A DNA stretch of 39,886 bases from Verrucomicrobiales bacterium. Its GTDB lineage: Bacteria > Verrucomicrobiota > Verrucomicrobiia > Limisphaerales > F1-12-MAGs170. Both the position numbers and the translations under genes were made by a program. This document shows, piece after piece, positions 25,205 through 35,070 of this stretch. Below the pieces are notes generated by a model. That model worked only from the letters and a program-made list of their open reading frames with translations. It searched no databases and was not told where the DNA came from. Numbering within the stretch: position 1 is the first letter of the stretch; each line of letters begins with the position of its first letter. The stretch lies in contig SXMN01000241.1 of NCBI GenBank assembly GCA_005777315.1, forward strand, positions 1 through 39,886, written 5' to 3'.

Positions 25205-28200
25205 TTACTGGCCAAGTATTATTCGGTAGAATCTGAATTCGGTGGTCGGTGGAAGCAAATCCGTTTGAATTGAAACAGCGCTGGATGCGGTGATGGGAGT
25301 GCCGAGGTTGAGCCAGGACCCCAGATCGGTGGAATACTGAACGCGATACGACTGGCCGATTTGTGAAGTCCATTTGATTAAGATTGTCCCCGGCGTTGGA
25401 ACGCTGACGCCTACAATCTCAACGGAGGGCGCAGCACCGACTGAAACGTTGAATGTCTTGTCGTTGCTCAATGGGATTAGACTTTCGTCAGTCACACGAA
25501 CGGTGATGGTGAATGTTTGCGAGGCTTGAGCAACTGCGGGAGTCCATTGGAACTGGCCGCTGGACGGATCGATGGTCGCGCCACTCGGCACACCACCAAC
25601 GAGAGCGAAGGTCAGCTTTTGCGGTGGAAGATCGGCGTCGGTGGCTCGGGCGGTCAGTTTTAACAGACTCCCAACAGTGGCCGTCTGATTTGGGATCGGG
25701 TCCAGGCTCGGGGCGGTGTTGGCTTCTGTGACAGTGATGATGATGGTCTTCGCATCCGTCATGGGTGGAGCCCCGTCGTCGGTCACTCGAATGGTGATGG
25801 GATAGGTGCCTGGGCCATCCGCTTCGGTGGTTGTCCAGTTGAAGGTGAGTGTGGCGGGGTCCAGTTTGGCACCGGCGGGTGCTCCGGGATCAATGGTGTA
25901 AGTGAGATTTTGGGCTGGCACGTCTCGGTCTCCGGCGAGGACGAGGAAGCTCACTGTTTTCCCTTCAACCACGCGTTGATCCTTGAAACTTGCGAACACA
26001 GGCGGCGTGTTCAGCGCGCTGACAGTGACGAGAAAAGTCTCCGATGTGCTCAAGGGCGGATTGCCATTGTCGGTGACGCTGATGGTCACCGGAAAAACTC
26101 CAGGCCCTTGAGGCGAGGATGGCGTCCAAGAGAATGCCCCCGTTGATGGATTGATCTTGGTGCCTTCGGGTGAGCCAGCACCGAGGCTGAAAGTCAGCGT
26201 CTGAGTTGGAATGTCTGTGTCCTTGGCGACGGCGATGAACTCAAGAGTGCCCCCTTTGGCGACGGAGCGTGAGCCGATCGAAGTGAGCAAGGGAGGGGCA
26301 TTGCCCGCGACCACAGTGATACTGAAAGTGCGGGCGGCGTTTAGAGAAGGTGTTCCGTTGTCTGCTGCAACGACAGTAATGGAGTGCGCCTTTCCCGCTT
26401 GGGCGACAGTTGGGGTCCAGGAGAACACTCCCGTGCCAGGATTGATCGAGGCTCCAACCGGTGCCGCGTCGAGGCTGAAGGTGATGGCTTGAGCAGGAAC
26501 ATCCGTGTCTTTGGCCTCTGCAGTGAATGTCACGATGACGCCGGGAGCCACGGCACGATCACCAATGGCGGCGAGCGTCGGTGCCGCATTCACTTCGTTG
26601 ACTGTCACCGTGATCGTTTCGACATCCGACAAAGCAGGCGTGCCGTCATCCGTGACGCGAATGGTGATGTTGTAGGTTGCCGGGCCTTGCTGCTCCGTTG
26701 GAGTCCAGGTGAAGATCCCACTGCTGGCGTTGATAGTGGCTCCACCTGGTGCGCCTGCATCCAGAGTGAACTTCAAAACTTGCCCTGCGTCGGGCTCCTG
26801 TGCTGTCGCGGCGAACGTGAGGGGAGCGCCTTCGGCGATGGATTTGTTGCCAATGGCCGCGAGCACTGGTGGGTTGTTGTTGGCAACATTTCCAAAAATG
26901 TTTCGAGCGCGAGGCGTGGGACGAACCATCGACTGGAAAGGCGTGGTGTTTCCATCAGGCCAGCGTCCCTGGCTGACGTCATTGGATTGCGCCGCAAAAG
27001 CGACGGTGTCGACGAGAGTTCCTGCGGGATTGTAAAGCGCGATTCCTTCGCCAGTCTGGCTGAGTTTGAAGCTCGTGTGAAGATCAGCGGTTGCACCGTT
27101 CTGGCCCGGCTCACCATCTGCCCAAACGAGCAGATAGCCACCTGCGGGAATCGTGGTGCCATTGGGTATGATCCATTGCGCAGGATTGGACTGATCATCC
27201 GTCAAGGTGAACCCCGAGAGATCCACCGTGGCGTTGCCGCCATTGTAGAGCTCGAACCAGTCCTCGATGTCGTTGTCCGCCGGGTCAGTCAACGTGAGCG
27301 TGTTTGCCGCCATCCATTCATTGATGAAAACAACGACGGGTGGATAAGTGTTGTTGTTCGCCGCCCCAGGTGTGGCGGTGTAAAAGCGCTGGCGTTTGCC
27401 ACTGGTGCCGTCTGGAAACGCTCCGAGCGATCGATCCGCAGTCATCTGCTTGTAATTGAGATAGTCGATCACCTTGGTCTGCCCGTTGAACGGTCCCGCC
27501 AGAATGATTGAGCCATCCGCCGCTGCGATGCGGAAACTGGTGTGCAGTTCGGAGGCTGTGGATTCTGTCGGCTCGCCGTCGAGCCAGACAATGACTCGCT
27601 GTCCAGCGTTGATGGTGAAGCCGGCTGGAAAATTCCAACGCTGGAGATTTGCGTAATCGTCACTCAAGGAGTAACCCGACAGGCTGATGGGCGTTGTCCC
27701 GGAGTTGTAGAGTTCCACCCACGGATCGCGGTCTCCCATGCGGTCCACCGGCCCGGAGGCGTTGTTCGGCTGGACTTCATTGAGCCAGATTGTGGGGAAG
27801 GCAGGCAGGGAAGTTTTCACCGAGTTCGCCGCGCCCGGCGAGTAAGGTGCTCCGGTCGGAGCGCTGCCACCCGTGGTGGTGGTGGTATCGAGAGACAATC
27901 CGAAGACTACGTCACTGCTTCCGGCGTTGACTTGATGAACTTCGACCGCGATGACGTTGTCGCCTTGAAGGAGTGCGGAGCCATGCACTGTGAATGGACC
28001 TTCGTTTGCCGCGTCGCTGACGGTGCGCCCGGCGAACGTCGAATAAGTCACGTCACCGTCCGGCAATCCGATTCGATAGATTTCGGTGCCATTGAGGTAA
28101 ACGACCGCGCCGTCATCAAGGATCAGGTTAAGCGTGAGCGTGGTGCTGGCGGCATTGCCGGAGAAGTTGAAATGGTTTCGGAAATAATAAGTGGTCGGGC

Positions 28201-31200
28201 CAATCGTGAGTGCCGTGCTCTTCGTAGCCGGGAGGGCTGCCGATTCGACGTAAAGCAACGCCGGACCGGAACTCCAGCCGGCGTCATTGTAGGAGCGCTC
28301 TCGCCATGCGGTGCCGAGATCGTTGCCGGCCTGGTTGTATTTCCATGCGCTGGTCATGCCGATAGGGCTTTGAGTGACCACTGTTGGCGGGGTTCCGCCT
28401 CCAGCTCCTGACTGGGTGACGGCGCTCCAGTTGAGCACACGATTGTTGTCTTGCGCGGGGTCAATGAGCTGCAGCGAGGGGCCGAAGCCGTCGGCTGTGG
28501 CCGGCCAGGGTGCGGCGTTGTCATAAGTTACGGAGTCGATCAAGAGATCCAGTTCAGGTGTGGCTCCGGGTTTGACGAGCGTGAGAGTTTCTCCGCCGTT
28601 CTGAAGCTTGCCTTTGTAGATGCCGGCGATGGGAATCGAGGAGCCATACGTGGTCGCGAAAGTGGCGGTATCGTTGACAATGACGACAAATCCTCCGGGT
28701 TGAACGATGACGCCATCTGGGAACGTGAAATCCGCTCCATCCAGACGCCAGCCGGAGAGATCAAACGCCGTGGACAAGGATCGATTGTGGATCTCAACGA
28801 AGGATGCATCCGCCACCGTGGCGTTGTACATGATCTCGTTGATGACCAGGAAATCCTGCGGTTGCTCGGCCGCCCCGCTATAAGTGATCGAGACGGTTTT
28901 TGATGTGCCGGCAACGGGTCTTCCCTGGCTGTCGTAGCCTTGGATATTCAGCTTGTTCACGCCATTGCCAAGTGCGTAGGCCATCGACCAGGAAGTGGTC
29001 GTGGCCCAGGTGAGCGGGTAGCTGACGCCATTGATTTCGATGGTTTGAACGCCAACGGGCGCAGTGCCTGTGAGTGAGATGGAGTTCTTGTTGGTGGTGA
29101 AGTCTGCGCCGCCATTGATCGTGAGCGCGAAGTTCGCGGTGACTTTGGCGAGGTGGTTGGTGAGAATGTACTGACGGCGTGCTTCGATGTAGGATTTGAG
29201 TGCTGATGGACTCGCAACACTGATTCCGTTGGCCTGGAGAGCTGAATACTTAGCGTCCAGGATCGGGCCGATATTCGCGGCCAGCATGGGACCGTTTACA
29301 GCGTCATACATGGCGCGGAAATAGGCGCGCCGGAAAGGGGCGTGGTTCAGGAATCTCTGGATGGTGGGATCGTTGATCCCGCTGAACATGTCCGTCTGTG
29401 GACCATCGCTGCCGGAGCCGAGGACAAAATCGATGTCCCAGGCAAAAAGCTGCCAGCGACCGCCGTCGGGTTTGTAAGCGTACATGTTCTTGCCGCGACC
29501 GGTGCCGTAGGCGTCCCAGTTTCCTGCGATATGTTCGAGGCAAATGACACGCGCCCACTGTTCCACGTCCAATTGTGATTCGGTCTGCTGTGTGTAGGCG
29601 GTGGTGTTCTGAGTGTTGAGCGCATCCACCAGTTTGAAGAGATTTGTGTAGGCATTGGCGGAATCGGACACCGCGCGTTTGCGCCAGTTCCAGCGGTAAC
29701 GGGCGAGCTTCTTCACCCCTCCCGTCGTCGTGAAATTCTGGAGAGTGGCATCGACGTTGGATTGTTTGCTGTCGCCTGATGCGTCGAACTCAAACCAGTC
29801 TTCGATCTTGTGAAGGTCGCCGTTGTTGTTGTCGGGAAACCATTGATCGATGATGTCTGAGTTCGGCTGTTGAGAATCTTCGAAAATTCGAGCCCGCTGG
29901 CCGCCGTTTACATACATCCGGATGTGGCGGCGATAATTGTTCTGGGCCCCGAGTTGTCCGAGAATCCAGAAGGCCGCCTGTTCACGTTGGGCGGTGTCGT
30001 CGCTGTCCAGATTGCCCACGGTGGCAAGAACGAGATCATTTGCGCCGAGGAGCGGCTGGTCATCGGGGAACTGTGTGACGTAATCGCAATTGTTGCCGAT
30101 GGGGGAGTTGAAACCGGGCGTGTGCCAGGGACTGCCGCTGTAGAGGGTTCCGATGTTGTAAACGACGCGTTCGTTGTTGTAGATGAAGGTCGCATCAAGC
30201 GGCTTGTTGCTGTTCTTCTCACGCGTGGACCAGCGCGTCTGGGTGGCTTTGGTGAACCAGAGGTGATAGGTGCCGAAGGTGCCCGCGGGTTGGGGTTCGC
30301 CAACGCGGATCAGACATTCCCGAACCGGCGCATCGCTGGGGAAGAGAATCGTTGCGTTCGGGGAAGCGCCGTCTGTGGCTTTGATCGTGAAAGCCACCAT
30401 GCTTCCACTGCTTTGCCCTGGGATTGTTCCGCTGAAGAGTCCCGCGCCGTTATTTACCATGCCGACGGTCGTGATGTTGGTCGCGGGGTCGAGGCGATAG
30501 CTCAGAAGCAAGGTGGCGATGCCATCCGGATCATGGACGCGTGCCTTGACGGTGATCGATTGATTGGCGGATGGCAGCACGGGGCTGTGGGTGACATCAT
30601 AGATCGCAGGCCCGGCGTTTGAGGCATGGCGGCTGTTCCTTGCTCCGGGAGTTCCCAGGTTCGTTGCCGAAACAATGTTGCCGAAGGCTTCCAGCCAGTT
30701 TCCATGCAGACGAAGAAGGATCTCCGGATTTCCCTTCAGCCAGCGAACTCTCGCGCGCAACGTCGCGGTCTGACCCGAATTGAGTGAAGTGGTGAGCTGC
30801 GTGCGGACGCGATTGGCTCCGGTGTCGCCCCGGCCCGCCGCTCGAATGTGAAGTGATTTTCCGCTATTAAAGCCTTCAGTTGTTTCGAGCGACGAGGCGT
30901 CGTGTGTGCCTTGGAAAAACCAGCCGTCCGCGCCGGATTCGAGGGTCGAGTTTGCGATAAGGTTTTGTCCTCCGGCGGCAAACACTTCAATGTTATCCAC
31001 GAGGCATTCGCCTGGGCCTTGGAGGAATAGCTGGAGCGAATCGGCGGCGCCATTGCCGTTGTCCAGCACGCCGGTCCATTGCACTGTGGTCCAGGCGCTC
31101 TTTGACGATTCGTCGCTGTCCGCCCAGTTCGGAGCCAGGCGGTGGTTACTGTCAGGATCGATGAGTTCTAGGCTGCTGCCTCCTCCGTCCGACCAGTTGC

Positions 31201-33667
31201 CCCAGCGGCCGCCGGTTCCGTAGGTGACTTCATCGACGATAATATGAATCGTGTTTGTGACGAGAATTCCGTTGCTGTTGGTGCTGACCACCAGGTCCGG
31301 CATGTCCAGCCGGAGGCGTTCACCTTGACTGGACAGCCGGCCATCGAAGTCGCCGAGCGTGTTTGCACTGGTGAGGTTGGAATAGTTCGCGCGAAGGTGG
31401 AGCGCGTTTCGAGCAACGACGAGATGCCCGCCCGGCAACAGGACGGTGCTGGCGGGGAATTTGAAATCCACTCCATCCGTGAGACGCCAGCCGGACAGAT
31501 CGACCGCGCTCACGCTGCGGTTATGGAGTTCGACAAACTGGTCATCGTCATTTCCGGAAATCGGATTGTACATGACCTCGTTGATGACGATGGGGCGGAT
31601 CAGATGGGTGCCATTGGCAGCGCCGGGCGTTTTTGTTGAGAGCTCATGCAAATCCGGCGAGCCGTCTGGATAGCGTCCGGTGGAGACGCCGTTGTCCTGG
31701 CCTTTGAAGTGAATGGCATCGATGATTCGATCAAGGCCTGGACTCCGCAGATAAATCGTTTCCCCGGCGGCATTGAGGGAAAAGCCGAGTTGATTTTGGT
31801 TGAAGACAACAAAGCCCTTGGCGGGGATTGTTGTTCCAGAGGGTATCGTGAACTTGTTGACGCCAACATCGTCCGTCACGAAGCACCCGCCCAGAGTGAC
31901 AGGCTGTGCGCTGTAGTTGTAGAGTTCGATGTAATCGAGTTCGGGATCGTCCGTATGAGCGAGGAACTCATTGATGACCACCGTCCGGTATGGACTCGAC
32001 GAACTAGGTTCAGATGTGCCGGGAGATCCACCAATGAAGTTGCTGGCAGCCCATGCTCTTGGGTCTCTTTCACCATAAGAGGGGCGGACGAGGACCAGCG
32101 AATGCCCCGCTCCGTCAGCTGCCCTTGGAAAGGGCGGCTCGGTTTCGTATGTCGCCTCGATCAAAACGGCGCCGAGATGATTGCGAAGGCGGACGACGCC
32201 GGAGCTGTTCTTGAGACTCTTCTCGTAAGGTCCGAAGACGCCACCAATTCCATAAACGCTTTGGACATCAGCAGGAAGTTTGGCAACGACCAGGTAGCTT
32301 CGGGCTGAAATCTTCGTGCCTGGAGGGAACGTGAAATCGACTTCACCGGAGAGGCGAAAATTTGAGATGTCTTCGAAAAACGGCTGTGAATTGTAAATTT
32401 CGACGAACTCCACATCCTTGCCGTCGCTGCGTGCGGCGGGGTGGTACATGATTTCTGAAATGACGAGCCCGGTTCTTCGGCTGGAAGGACCGGGTGATTC
32501 CGGCCTGCCGTAGAGGTCGCCGACATCCAATGGTGTGAAGTCTATGGTGAAGCTGGCTTGGGAGTTCGGAGCGATGGTGTTGGGGATTGAGCCTCGATCC
32601 CGGACGCTGTTAATCGTGAGTGTGTAACTGACACCCACGGTCATGGGAGTTGTCGTCAGGACAACAGTGCGAGCATCGCTGTCCAGCACGGCGGAAAGCA
32701 CGCCTGCTCCATTGTTGAGTTGGAAATTTGACTTTTGTGTGGCGGTGCTGGCTTCGACCGCTTCGGAGAAGAGGATGCTGACGGTGCTGTTCCCGCCGAG
32801 ATTGGCCACGGAAACAATCGTTGGCGGCGACGTGTCACGGACGACGGCAAGGCTGGCGCTCGCACTGGTGACGCTTCCTTGCGGATTTGTGATGACGCAC
32901 AGGAAGCTGGCTCCGGTGTCCGCCAACGTCGCAACAGGCAGAATGTATGTGGACTGTGTGGCCCCGGGGATGGCAGCATTGTTTCTGCGCCATTGATAGG
33001 TGGCTCCAGTCGCGCGGCTCAATTGCACCGTGAATGCAGCCGGTGTTCCTTCGACAACGGTTAGATTCGAGGGTTGTTGGGTTATTTGCGGAGCCGACAG
33101 GCCATAGGCGGTAAGGCGGCTGCCGGGGATCGGTTCCTCCATGGTGCCGTTGGGGAGCTGCCAGCGCACCGCCAGGTTGTCACCACCGCCGCCCTCTTTC
33201 ATCAACGCTTCGATGTAATACTTGTGGCCTCCTGAAAGCGTGATGGCAGCGGATTTTTGCTCCGGATACTTTCCCCACTCCCGGGAGCTGGTCCATCCGG
33301 GAACAGTCGCTATCGAAATTTTGTTCTGCGGCTGATCGGTTGTGCTGAGAAACAACTGGCCTGCGTCATCGCTCGCGATCCAAAAAGTGTAATTGCCGGT
33401 CGTGGGTGCCTGGATCAAGGCGCGGAGGCGCTGGCCGTAATTCTCATCCACATCGGTTGGAGCTTCAAATGTCGAGAGGATGCTTTCCGCCGACGGGTTC
33501 GAGGGAAACGCGGCGCTGCCGGTCAGATCGCTGATGGCTACGCCGCCAATGCCGGTATAAACCTCTCTTAGAACTCCGGACGTTTGCGCTTGCGTCTGAC
33601 CAGCGAGGAAACCTGAAGCGACACAGATGGAAAGTAATGTACTCGGAAGCGAAAAGAGCTTACGCAT
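25205..33667 (-). CDS. Giant multidomain exoprotein: PA14, Ig, lamin-tail domains, CotH kinase-like domain, Ig repeats
   Basis: The 2820-residue secreted protein starts at ATG 33667 with signal peptide MRKLFSLPSTLLSICVASG. Domains in order are as follows. PA14-like, ~35-190 (YTFWIASDDAGQLFLS, KYYIEALMKEGGGGDNLAV). Ig-like, ~200-280 (ITQQPSNLTVVEGTPAAF). SbsA-type Ig, ~285-385. Lamin-tail domains at ~410, ~560 and ~690 (VISEIMYHP, VINEFLAH, VINEVMYNP). A CotH kinase-like domain, ~1150-1520, with HIAGNWDAYG, GKNMYAY and WQLFAWDIDF. Further lamin-tail domains at ~1610, ~1960 and ~2115. Five putative Ig repeats, ~2260-2740 (IG..S.AEG and FTWTP). A C-terminal module ends FRFYRIILG. CotH proteins can be protein kinases of spore coats; in Verrucomicrobiota such giants are probably surface or matrix proteins. 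It converges with the prepilin-like gene, with a 217-bp gap. Confidence 0.9.
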   Translation of the reverse strand: MRKLFSLPSTLLSICVASGFLAGQTQAQTSGVLREVYTGIGGVAISDLTGSAAFPSNPSAESILSTFEAPTDVDENYGQRLRALIQAPTTGNYTFWIASDDAGQLFLSTTDQPQNKISIATVPGWTSSREWGKYPEQKSAAITLSGGHKYYIEALMKEGGGGDNLAVRWQLPNGTMEEPIPGSRLTAYGLSAPQITQQPSNLTVVEGTPAAFTVQLSRATGATYQWRRNNAAIPGATQSTYILPVATLADTGASFLCVITNPQGSVTSASASLAVVRDTSPPTIVSVANLGGNSTVSILFSEAVEASTATQKSNFQLNNGAGVLSAVLDSDARTVVLTTTPMTVGVSYTLTINSVRDRGSIPNTIAPNSQASFTIDFTPLDVGDLYGRPESPGPSSRRTGLVISEIMYHPAARSDGKDVEFVEIYNSQPFFEDISNFRLSGEVDFTFPPGTKISARSYLVVAKLPADVQSVYGIGGVFGPYEKSLKNSSGVVRLRNHLGAVLIEATYETEPPFPRAADGAGHSLVLVRPSYGERDPRAWAASNFIGGSPGTSEPSSSSPYRTVVINEFLAHTDDPELDYIELYNYSAQPVTLGGCFVTDDVGVNKFTIPSGTTIPAKGFVVFNQNQLGFSLNAAGETIYLRSPGLDRIIDAIHFKGQDNGVSTGRYPDGSPDLHELSTKTPGAANGTHLIRPIVINEVMYNPISGNDDDQFVELHNRSVSAVDLSGWRLTDGVDFKFPASTVLLPGGHLVVARNALHLRANYSNLTSANTLGDFDGRLSSQGERLRLDMPDLVVSTNSNGILVTNTIHIIVDEVTYGTGGRWGNWSDGGGSSLELIDPDSNHRLAPNWADSDESSKSAWTTVQWTGVLDNGNGAADSLQLFLQGPGECLVDNIEVFAAGGQNLIANSTLESGADGWFFQGTHDASSLETTEGFNSGKSLHIRAAGRGDTGANRVRTQLTTSLNSGQTATLRARVRWLKGNPEILLRLHGNWLEAFGNIVSATNLGTPGARNSRHASNAGPAIYDVTHSPVLPSANQSITVKARVHDPDGIATLLLSYRLDPATNITTVGMVNNGAGLFSGTIPGQSSGSMVAFTIKATDGASPNATILFPSDAPVRECLIRVGEPQPAGTFGTYHLWFTKATQTRWSTREKNSNKPLDATFIYNNERVVYNIGTLYSGSPWHTPGFNSPIGNNCDYVTQFPDDQPLLGANDLVLATVGNLDSDDTAQREQAAFWILGQLGAQNNYRRHIRMYVNGGQRARIFEDSQQPNSDIIDQWFPDNNNGDLHKIEDWFEFDASGDSKQSNVDATLQNFTTTGGVKKLARYRWNWRKRAVSDSANAYTNLFKLVDALNTQNTTAYTQQTESQLDVEQWARVICLEHIAGNWDAYGTGRGKNMYAYKPDGGRWQLFAWDIDFVLGSGSDGPQTDMFSGINDPTIQRFLNHAPFRRAYFRAMYDAVNGPMLAANIGPILDAKYSALQANGISVASPSALKSYIEARRQYILTNHLAKVTANFALTINGGADFTTNKNSISLTGTAPVGVQTIEINGVSYPLTWATTTSWSMAYALGNGVNKLNIQGYDSQGRPVAGTSKTVSITYSGAAEQPQDFLVINEIMYNATVADASFVEIHNRSLSTAFDLSGWRLDGADFTFPDGVIVQPGGFVVIVNDTATFATTYGSSIPIAGIYKGKLQNGGETLTLVKPGATPELDLLIDSVTYDNAAPWPATADGFGPSLQLIDPAQDNNRVLNWSAVTQSGAGGGTPPTVVTQSPIGMTSAWKYNQAGNDLGTAWRERSYNDAGWSSGPALLYVESAALPATKSTALTIGPTTYYFRNHFNFSGNAASTTLTLNLILDDGAVVYLNGTEIYRIGLPDGDVTYSTFAGRTVSDAANEGPFTVHGSALLQGDNVIAVEVHQVNAGSSDVVFGLSLDTTTTTGGSAPTGAPYSPGAANSVKTSLPAFPTIWLNEVQPNNASGPVDRMGDRDPWVELYNSGTTPISLSGYSLSDDYANLQRWNFPAGFTINAGQRVIVWLDGEPTESTASELHTSFRIAAADGSIILAGPFNGQTKVIDYLNYKQMTADRSLGAFPDGTSGKRQRFYTATPGAANNNTYPPVVVFINEWMAANTLTLTDPADNDIEDWFELYNGGNATVDLSGFTLTDDQSNPAQWIIPNGTTIPAGGYLLVWADGEPGQNGATADLHTSFKLSQTGEGIALYNPAGTLVDTVAFAAQSNDVSQGRWPDGNTTPFQSMVRPTPRARNIFGNVANNNPPVLAAIGNKSIAEGAPLTFAATAQEPDAGQVLKFTLDAGAPGGATINASSGIFTWTPTEQQGPATYNITIRVTDDGTPALSDVETITVTVNEVNAAPTLAAIGDRAVAPGVIVTFTAEAKDTDVPAQAITFSLDAAPVGASINPGTGVFSWTPTVAQAGKAHSITVVAADNGTPSLNAARTFSITVVAGNAPPLLTSIGSRSVAKGGTLEFIAVAKDTDIPTQTLTFSLGAGSPEGTKINPSTGAFSWTPSSPQGPGVFPVTISVTDNGNPPLSTSETFLVTVSALNTPPVFASFKDQRVVEGKTVSFLVLAGDRDVPAQNLTYTIDPGAPAGAKLDPATLTFNWTTTEADGPGTYPITIRVTDDGAPPMTDAKTIIITVTEANTAPSLDPIPNQTATVGSLLKLTARATDADLPPQKLTFALVGGVPSGATIDPSSGQFQWTPAVAQASQTFTITVRVTDESLIPLSNDKTFNVSVGAAPSVEIVGVSVPTPGTILIKWTSQIGQSYRVQYSTDLGSWLNLGTPITASSAVSIQTDLLPPTTEFRFYRIILGQ

Positions 33668-33881
33668 GGCGTGAAGTTTAGCAGGTTCCAAGCCACGGAA
33701 CTGGAGGCGGTAACAACGCGATGACTTGCGCCGATGCTAGAGCAGGAAAGGACACGTGTGCAGTTCCGGGACACTTACGACTGAATTTGAGCCAGTCCTT
33801 GAGAAATTTCCGCGGCTTGGCAACCAGATTTCGGTGCCGTGAACACAGGCATGAAGAAGCTATCTTCGGTTTATGTGTGAG

Positions 33882-34892
33882 GGGTCAGTTCTTATGATTG
33901 ATTAGTCACGAGAGAGACCTACGCTATCCGTCGTGGCACGCAAACTGAGACTGGAATATCCCGGAGCGATTTATCACATCATCAATCGTGGAGATCGGCG
34001 AGAAGCGATCTTTCGGGATGACGGCGACCGGCAACGGTTTGTGGAGACGCTCGGGGAAACGTGCGTCCGGAGCGGATGGGATGTGCATGCATATTGTCTG
34101 ATGCCCAATCATTTTCATCTGGTGGTGGAGACGCCGCAACCGACGCTGGTGGTCGGGATGCAATGGTTTCTCGGAACCTACACCGGACGTTTCAACCAAC
34201 GGCACAAGCTCTTTGGGCACTTGTTCAGCGGCCGCTACAAGTCGCTGATCGTCGATGGTTCGGGCAAGGGGTACCTGCGAATCGTCTGCGATTACGTTCA
34301 TCTGAACCCGGCGCGAGCCAGGCTGCTCACGCCTGCGCAGGCGTTGCGGGAATACCAGTGGAGCAGTTGGCCGGATTACCTGCGGGCACCGGGCAAGAGA
34401 CCGGAATGGTTGCGCGTGGATCGGGTGTTGGGAGAGGCGGGGATTTCCAAAGACAGCGCGGCGAGGCGGCAGGAGCTGGAGAGGTGGATCGAAGCGCGGC
34501 GAGGGGCGGAGGAAGACGTGGATTACAAACCGATCCGGCGGGGCTGGTTTTTCGGGGAAAAGGTGTTGAAGCAGGAATTGCTGGGCCAGATGAGTGAGCG
34601 TATGGGGCCGGAGCATTACGGAGAGGAACGGCGGGAGAGCCAGGCGGAAAAGGCGGAAAGGATGGTGGGAGAGGAATTGCGGCAGCGGAATTGGGTGGAG
34701 GCGACACTTGGGGAACGCAAGAAAGGCGACCGCGAGAAGGTGAAGATCGCCTTACGATTGAGGAGCGAGACAATGGTGACCGTGGCATGGATTGCGCAAC
34801 GACTACAGATGGGTAGTGTGGCCAACGTGAATACGCTTCTGTACCACTGGCGGCGGAACAATAGGCAAATATCTGTTCATAAGAACTGACCC
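33882..34892 (+). mobile_element. RAYT-carrying mobile unit bounded by perfect 16-bp inverted repeats
   Basis: GGGTCAGTTCTTATGA at 33882-33897 has its exact reverse complement, TCATAAGAACTGACCC, at 34877-34892. They enclose one transposase gene, whose last codons and stop lie in the right repeat. The whole unit is 1011 bp. No target-site duplication is obvious. The ends are simple inverted repeats and not the subterminal hairpins of classical IS200. Confidence 0.75.
33933..34889 (+). CDS. REP-associated tyrosine transposase (RAYT, Y1_Tnp/IS200-like)
   Basis: The 318-residue single-strand DNA transposase is of the HUH superfamily. The N-terminal Y1 domain has RKLRLEYPGAIYHIINRGDRRE, the HUH motif PNHFHLVVET (H60, H62) and a candidate catalytic Tyr in GTYTGRFNQRHKLFGHLFSG (Y83), followed by GRYKSLIVD and CDYVHLNPARA, all typical of RAYTs. 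The C-terminal ~130 residues are basic and helical, ending in a helix-turn-helix-like TMVTVAWIAQRLQMGSVANVNTLLYHW. Such proteins mobilise palindromic REP elements. The start could be GTG 33933, which gives the conserved N-terminus. The gene fills the unit bounded by 16-bp inverted repeats. Confidence 0.9.
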   Translation: MARKLRLEYPGAIYHIINRGDRREAIFRDDGDRQRFVETLGETCVRSGWDVHAYCLMPNHFHLVVETPQPTLVVGMQWFLGTYTGRFNQRHKLFGHLFSGRYKSLIVDGSGKGYLRIVCDYVHLNPARARLLTPAQALREYQWSSWPDYLRAPGKRPEWLRVDRVLGEAGISKDSAARRQELERWIEARRGAEEDVDYKPIRRGWFFGEKVLKQELLGQMSERMGPEHYGEERRESQAEKAERMVGEELRQRNWVEATLGERKKGDREKVKIALRLRSETMVTVAWIAQRLQMGSVANVNTLLYHWRRNNRQISVHKN

Positions 34893-35070
34893 GTTTTCGA
34901 TCCCGTATTCCGCCGCCAATCGGCCAAGGAAGTTCTCGACAAACCACCTGCGGGAATCAAACGTCTTTCGAGCCGCAATAAGTCACGTCAGATGGGACGT
35001 GGAATAACTGTTTGGCGAACTTGCACACCTGCAGATCGATTGAGGAAACGATGAAAGGACTAGTGTTATC

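Follow-up and report, generated by a model that had tools for sequence, protein, structure and literature searches.

The window, as the whole 39,886-nucleotide stretch of DNA analysed here is called, very probably carries a transposase gene that moves as one unit with the terminal inverted repeats enclosing it. This unit, which measures about 1.01 kb and runs from 33882 to about 34896, is likely to be a single-gene, IS-like element and a verrucomicrobial TIRtron. The TIRYT/TIRtron architecture has been known since 2013; the evidence of its moving in Verrucomicrobia is new support, and on this new evidence the element would be a working or recently working transposon of a known kind. Its features, and the repeat that adjoins it, are as follows:

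33882..33897, + strand: left terminal inverted repeat GGGTCAGTTCTTATGA (exact match, computed).
33933..34889, + strand: Y1/HUH transposase gene of TIRYT type, GTG start, 318 aa (open reading frame, Pfam, NCBIfam, AlphaFold).
34107..34118, + strand: HUH motif NHFH, residues 59-62 (sequence; conserved in the alignment; type as in Table 1 of Quentin 2018).
34293..34310, + strand: catalytic-tyrosine motif YVHLNP, residues 121-126 (sequence; conserved in the alignment).
34632..34886, + strand: C-terminal helical domain, residues 234-318, DnaA-domain-IV-like by model (structure comparison).
34877..34892, - strand: right terminal inverted repeat, exact reverse complement of GGGTCAGTTCTTATGA.
34893..34896, - strand: probable outermost right-end bases GTTT, or AAAC read outside-in (homology limits in other copies; AAA(G/C) is common).
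34894..35012, + strand: 119-bp dispersed repeat, outside the element and adjoining its right end (copies in C310 and, partly, C280 of the same genome).

The preliminary description had placed the gene between perfect 16-bp inverted repeats with its stop inside the right one, and both points are confirmed. The arms at 33882-33897 and 34877-34892 are identical over 16 of 16 bp with 979 nt in between, and the TGA at 34887-34889 falls within the right repeat. GGGTCAGTTCTTATGA and its reverse complement are the sole matches in the window at up to three mismatches, against a chance mean of 0.17 for matches of this type (one of 100 shuffles had at least two). The idea that palindromic families nearby might serve as passive partners finds no support in this search, since nothing else in the window matches the repeat at three mismatches or fewer and those palindromes are without the element's ends. 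In a Markov control of the gene flanks, no inverted pair in 2000 trials was longer than 11 bp, and the same limit held when the same geometry was placed randomly in the window (3000 placements, of which 2986 count because they were clear of at least one of the repeats). Under the gapped scoring used across loci the margin is thin, at 32 for the window and 31 for the highest shuffle. The right end reaches a few bases past 34892, with homology to other copies running to 34895-34899, and the window's left end is without the outer AAA(G/C) that is frequent at other ends.

The encoded protein has a Pfam match to Y1_Tnp (1.8e-13) that clears the cut-off, and gave no family in a PHROGs search. The GTG start is supported by an N-terminal motif, M-x-R-x-x-R-x-x-x-x-G-A-x-Y-H, that is common to all 29 aligned sequences, the window's included, and the HUH and tyrosine motifs are conserved across the aligned relatives. 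This alignment left out L010, L027 (which has lost the HUH motif), L066 (divergent) and L057 (a duplicate of L017); L049 was added to its final version. A scan for sigma-70-like promoters that included the left end (TTGATT/TTGACA) found none.

In an AlphaFold model of the window protein (mean pLDDT 86.5), the closest fold is that of the E. coli RAYT with REP, 4er8 (Foldseek 1.1e-5; VIA Z 15.9, rmsd 2.5, 158 residues aligned). Residues 234-318, modelled separately at a pLDDT of 92.5, were compared with 74 chains and resembled residues 351-433 of 8btg_B with a Z of 8.8 (rmsd 3.1, 78 aligned), a value to be read with caution because for helical folds a Z under about 13 may reflect a common arrangement only; the runner-up, the DNA-binding domain of the Tc3 transposase, scored 4.6. 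The 8btg entry is titled as a bacterial replication origin opening basal unwinding system, and its chain B we take to be DnaA. Foldseek with this domain gave no row at E ≤ 0.001, Pfam DnaA-C matched none of the 29 members (one matched HTH_31 at 0.29), and for the window protein phmmer against solved structures returned 0 matches and a profile search three weak transposase rows (E 0.46-0.49). The DnaA-domain-IV-like assignment is made on the basis of the one fold comparison and of its consistency with what has been published on subclass 2.1 (discussed below); as modelled, the domain would be a plausible reader of the repeats.

Protein matches occur in 39 of the 58 genomes searched, including the window's own, and 45 distinct full-length loci (the window's among them) were gathered from these and from the genome collection, loci that share an identical gene body being counted once. 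The named records are mostly Verrucomicrobia, and Pedosphaera sp. G226 has an 84% relative (L049). Five loci had too little flank for the inverted-end test; at 28 of the other 40 the inverted ends scored above all 200 shuffles. The 12 at which they did not exceed the control include copy C136 (L003) of the window's genome, in which the repeat at the right end is partly lost, and L017; both still show a recognisable end. Plasmid relatives at 33-35% identity were examined on three plasmids. Inverted ends above the control are found around two P. aeruginosa genes and one Legionella gene; the pair is perfect over 32 bp at one of the P. aeruginosa genes and measures 21 bp at the Legionella gene. 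The Skermanella relative has ends that are not above the control. On P. aeruginosa NZ_CP116719.1 (L256), relatives with inverted ends lie among genes with annotations as interbacterial toxin-like or other small proteins, and one stretch matches at ten places; these repeats might help to shuffle toxin-like modules.

Read from the outside in, the common end is AAA(G/C)G(G/T)GTC(A/G)GT(C/T)C, followed by a weak AT-rich stretch. The consensus was counted over 126 ends in which the core GTC(A/G)GT(C/T)C was required, 27 of 153 having been set aside as nested (among them a few with a chance upstream core). Its A-run is partly selected for, because some loci were fetched with a pattern that required AAA(G/C), and it is also frequent in the gene-bearing loci, which were fetched without such a pattern. 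Outside the 126 ends no strongly conserved base follows past the A-run; the weak signal there is a G, present in 53%, at the sixth base outward. Trials of seven short motifs (TCA, CTCA, GTCA and others) at every offset outside 98 ends, partly chosen by pattern, showed no enrichment. With this result a hint of a 'CTCA' target, seen by eye at a few insertions, was dropped.

The preliminary description would have taken a single copy at a conserved locus as evidence against mobility. The window's genome instead contains three full-length copies at different places, 100, 83 and 67% identical to the window protein, in addition to one 28-residue fragment. When the window copy is compared with L049 (in G001), L039 and C136, similarity is confined to the element (33882-34896, 33882-34895 and 33884-34899). 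The DNA to its left is 84% identical over 1522 bp to C85 of G001, which is without the transposase gene; this homology ends some 88 bp short of the element's left end, and on the other side the two sequences differ. Similar one-sided flanks, ending some distance from the element, were found for C112 against C186 of G001 (about 220 bp), C196 of G001 against C49 of the window's genome (about 84 bp), and C235 of G052 against G058, G059, G060 and G062 (about 91-128 bp), and none of the seven orthologous stretches fetched contains a transposase match. The comparison with empty sites in relatives that had been proposed earlier was therefore borne out in part: orthologous flanks without the element exist, but no exact empty site was found for the window copy, C112, C136, G001 C196, G052 C235, or one miniature each in G005 and G055. 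Viral contigs searched for empty sites yielded one distant relative only and no empty site.

Near-identical copies at different places provide a second kind of case. The copies at C196 of G001 and C136 of the window's genome are 96% identical over 1008 bp and sited differently, whereas orthologous DNA of the two species in the window's genus is 84-88% identical. In G052, two copies within one contig are 99.9% identical over 1023 bp and have different left flanks, the comparison being of the left side since copy B reaches the contig end. Beside the element at G001 C196 lies a gene fragment, 91% identical over 380 bp to a paralogue in C90, which stops at the element where the paralogue continues. 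The far side does not resume the interrupted gene, and this joint is therefore not a clean insertion. Insertion without target duplication, which had been expected of an HUH enzyme, agrees with the absence of any duplication evident by eye at the two G005 copies, G052 copy A and G001 C196. The joined flanks of 10 elements were also tested for reading frames, and the longest, around a G055 miniature, was rejected as an insertion into an open reading frame because by eye it is unlike a protein. Most of the genomes compared appear to be metagenome assemblies and others are in many contigs, so that any single case could be an assembly fault; movement is argued from the agreement of several kinds of case.

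A further kind of case comes from gene-less miniatures, that is, facing end pairs too close together for a gene, found by an end-pattern search of 40 of the 58 genomes (hand-chosen, 28 with and 12 without protein matches). The pattern is present in 23 of the 40, with 123 matches against 47 for a reversed control; the matched places were fetched in part, favouring genomes with facing pairs or many matches. G005 has two 176-bp copies, 98.3% identical, with the exact ends AAAAGGGG and CCCCTTTT and with different flanks, as well as a third copy, damaged at its right end, and an incomplete fourth that is 91% identical; the protein search found only gene fragments in this genome, though the miniatures are present. 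In G055, copies of about 132 bp occur at six places, one of them partial, and the other five are 79-85% identical to the query copy. G010 carries a near-perfect hairpin of about 80 bp in two copies, identical over 82 bp, whose ends nearly match those of that genome's full gene. Near-identical end-bearing repeats are found in G002 too, a genome with no protein match. The gene-less repeats of G005 and G002 are those in L188, L189, L196 and L199. Together, the differing flanks, the similarity that stops at the repeats, the sister sites without the element and the gene-less copies that share its ends support the earlier suggestion that the gene could move as a unit.

These observations concern the family, and it is possible, if doubtful, that only the family moves and that the window copy, perhaps with its lineage here, is a former transposon now inactive and kept by chance or for another use. 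The window's own genome supplies what speaks for this. A search there for further ends, single or paired, as the preliminary description had advised, gave two matches (one being the window's right end) against one for the control and revealed no facing pair without a gene; furthermore, the left end of the window copy is without the outer AAAC, the right end of its sister copy C136 is damaged, and the other copies are merely 83% and 67% identical to the window's. Against it, the reading frame is intact with its catalytic residues, both 16-bp ends are still identical, and C136 has its 96% partner in G001.

Domestication of the gene itself is a very improbable reading, in which it stays put and the repeats are a regulatory or processing feature, such as an autoregulatory operator or a transcript hairpin. 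The general view of RAYT-type genes is that they are domesticated, and according to a 2021 paper, in the part of it drawn on here, there is no evidence of tnpAREP mobility; in the window, moreover, the right repeat overlaps the stop codon and could for that reason act on the transcript. However, each compared copy has different flanks, near-identical duplicates exist, some sites are without the element, and some copies share the ends but have no gene. The occurrence of copies at several sites has already largely refuted this explanation.

It is highly improbable that the unit is carried by another system, an IS or an integrase acting on the same ends, with the Y1 gene as cargo: perfect terminal inverted repeats, typical of DDE transposons and not of IS200/IS605, would fit such a carrier, but there is no room for another gene between the repeats, where the remaining frames overlap the transposase gene, the inverted ends accompany this gene family in many relatives including those on P. 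aeruginosa and Legionella plasmids, and no target duplication, which DDE elements normally leave, is seen by eye.

Among the closest precedents of the TIR-bounded unit is the TIRYT/TIRtron of Di Nocera et al. (2013, PMC3733652), in which, as described in the relevant part of that paper, terminal inverted repeats surround a gene for a Y1 HUH transposase. The window element likewise has a Y1 gene between terminal inverted repeats that are unrelated to GTAG REPs. The same source reports that some TIRs carry the motif GGGGWSAS, that some overlap the gene, and that related repeats are single, dimeric or grouped in some genomes. The window's left end, GGGGTCAG, which is also the commonest end form among the relatives, fits this motif, and the right end, CGGGTCAG, does not. 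Whereas that paper, as far as this part of it extends, deals with architecture and repeat families, the present comparison adds near-identical copies at new sites, sister sites without the element, exact miniature ends and ladders of truncated ends, all in Limisphaerales/Pedosphaera-type Verrucomicrobia.

The window element also corresponds roughly to subclass 2.1 of the TnpAY1 proteins of Quentin et al. (2018, PMC6006769), a subclass that, in the sections consulted, is said probably to correspond to TIRYTs. It is described there by the motifs NH[YF]H and Y[IV]HLNP, a long protein, a C-terminus likened to DnaA-C/HTH domains, and no REP hairpins found; NHFH and YVHLNP in the window protein agree with both motif definitions. 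According to the abstract, no association with typical IS features holds for the proteins of any subclass except the IS200-like one, and the text drawn on here characterises class 2 by low copy number and low identity between copies, unlike the 99.9% identical pair and the miniatures found here. The term TIRYT was met in the literature searched only in these two papers, and among publications on RAYT, TnpAREP, REPIN and MITE no title or beginning of an abstract reports movement of the TIRYT branch, which is not proof of absence.

With the IS200/IS605 family (IS608, ISDra2) the window protein shares the Y1 HUH core fold, the VIA Z being 8.2-10.5 for the transposases listed. It differs in having Y-x-x-x-N-P (YVHLNP) in place of Y-x-x-x-Q and in its extra C-terminal domain, and the element differs in its true terminal inverted repeats, where IS200/IS605 has subterminal hairpins, and in that no fixed short target motif, beside which IS200/IS605 inserts, was found. 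The likeness to the RAYT/REPtron/REPIN system lies in the fold shared with 4er8 and in the gene-less inverted pairs, which resemble REPINs. In contrast to RAYTs, however, the gene here lies between its ends and recurs with them, and the protein scores 43.9 bits against NCBIfam REP_Tyr_transpos, below the cut-off of 80 for RAYTs sensu stricto. Around the window gene, C136, C112 and G001 C196, no GT[AG]G-footed hairpins were found up to 1000 bp away (perfect stems of 6-12 pairs, loops of 3-10; shuffle means 0.20-0.32). The window element is not a REP-hairpin RAYT. The contrast drawn earlier, with RAYTs acting on REPs in trans, misses the separate, already described TIRYT branch.

At some ends, further copies of the end are stacked on the outside. 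Among 65 gene-bearing ends (the count takes in ends that offer 120 nt or more and a core that can be recognised), 12 have at least one further end core within 45 nt outside, compared with 2 for a reversed-core control. Such ladders are seen at the following places:

L055, 2840-2960.
L040, 2820-2960.
L016 and L120, right ends.
L219, 525-614.

The steps measure 10, 11, 12, 13, 16, 22, 23, 24, 27, 34 and 38 nt, and the outer copies start at the A-run and stop at varied points. The 11-nt step, with its break after GTCA, occurs at six ends of five loci (weakly by eye at L017), and the left end of L040 gives the best fit to tandem growth of fixed period. The two G010 miniatures, within which 82 bp are identical, differ by one extra partial end copy. 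The simplest guess as to the origin of the ladders is that strand transfer places an end within an existing end or next to it. That such repeats form dimers and clusters was already noted, in the part concerned, by Di Nocera et al. (2013, PMC3733652).

Several repeats of other kinds surround the copies. The C280 copy of the 119-bp repeat also adjoins a degenerate end-like sequence, AGTGACCCCTTT; save for this case, the three dispersed repeats beside the copies in the window's genome are by eye without element ends. Four copies compared in two genomes of the same genus each have a dispersed repeat, or a fragment of a paralogous gene, abutting them or close by, a comparison made without a control for repeat density, and nearby repeats are not claimed as a preferred landing place. 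C112 contains a 171-bp repeat (L156:2402-2572) with inverted ends that by eye are unrelated to the transposon, present at some 37 or more other places in the window's genome and at more in the sister species. C136 begins with a repeat of 135-140 bp (L155:1-139) that is 97-100% identical at 17 other places in the window's genome, several of which are contig starts. This repeat may be one end of a multi-copy insertion sequence at which the assembly broke. In the window, the region beside the element (25205-33691) encodes a 2828-aa protein with six lamin-tail stretches and CotH kinase, Ig-like and PA14 domains.

A scheme for transposition can be proposed in which the gene and its two inverted ends, recurring together at unrelated sites, would form an IS-like transposon. 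The C-terminal, DnaA-IV-like domain may bind the inverted ends in double-stranded form and so dock the protein there; alternatively, the two ends might pair with each other while single-stranded, forming one long hairpin foot. The HUH/tyrosine core (NHFH, Y121, N125) would then nick the end and join it to a new site, leaving the target unduplicated. As other Y1 enzymes do, it would most likely work on single-stranded DNA during replication, and the enzyme would also serve the miniatures in trans. The chances that docking, nicking and joining proceed by these biochemical steps are about even. Only tentatively can the whole be put together, such that a class-2 (RAYT-type) HUH enzyme drives an autonomous TIR transposon and its miniatures by DnaA-domain-IV-like recognition of double-stranded ends and HUH cutting and joining, with no target duplication and no fixed target, and that the same reaction, acting on the element's own ends, adds truncated end copies one outside another and could originate REP-like arrays and BIMEs.

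RAYT-type genes have been described as the first prokaryotic domesticated transposases. The TIRYT branch, in which gene, ends and miniatures are found together in recent copies, would be a natural counter-example to RAYT immobility. The link between IS, MITE and REP/REPIN becomes testable in one system, for which the protein and a synthetic miniature of 80-176 bp offer a simple two-part assay, and the ladders of ends may show how repeat clusters grow.
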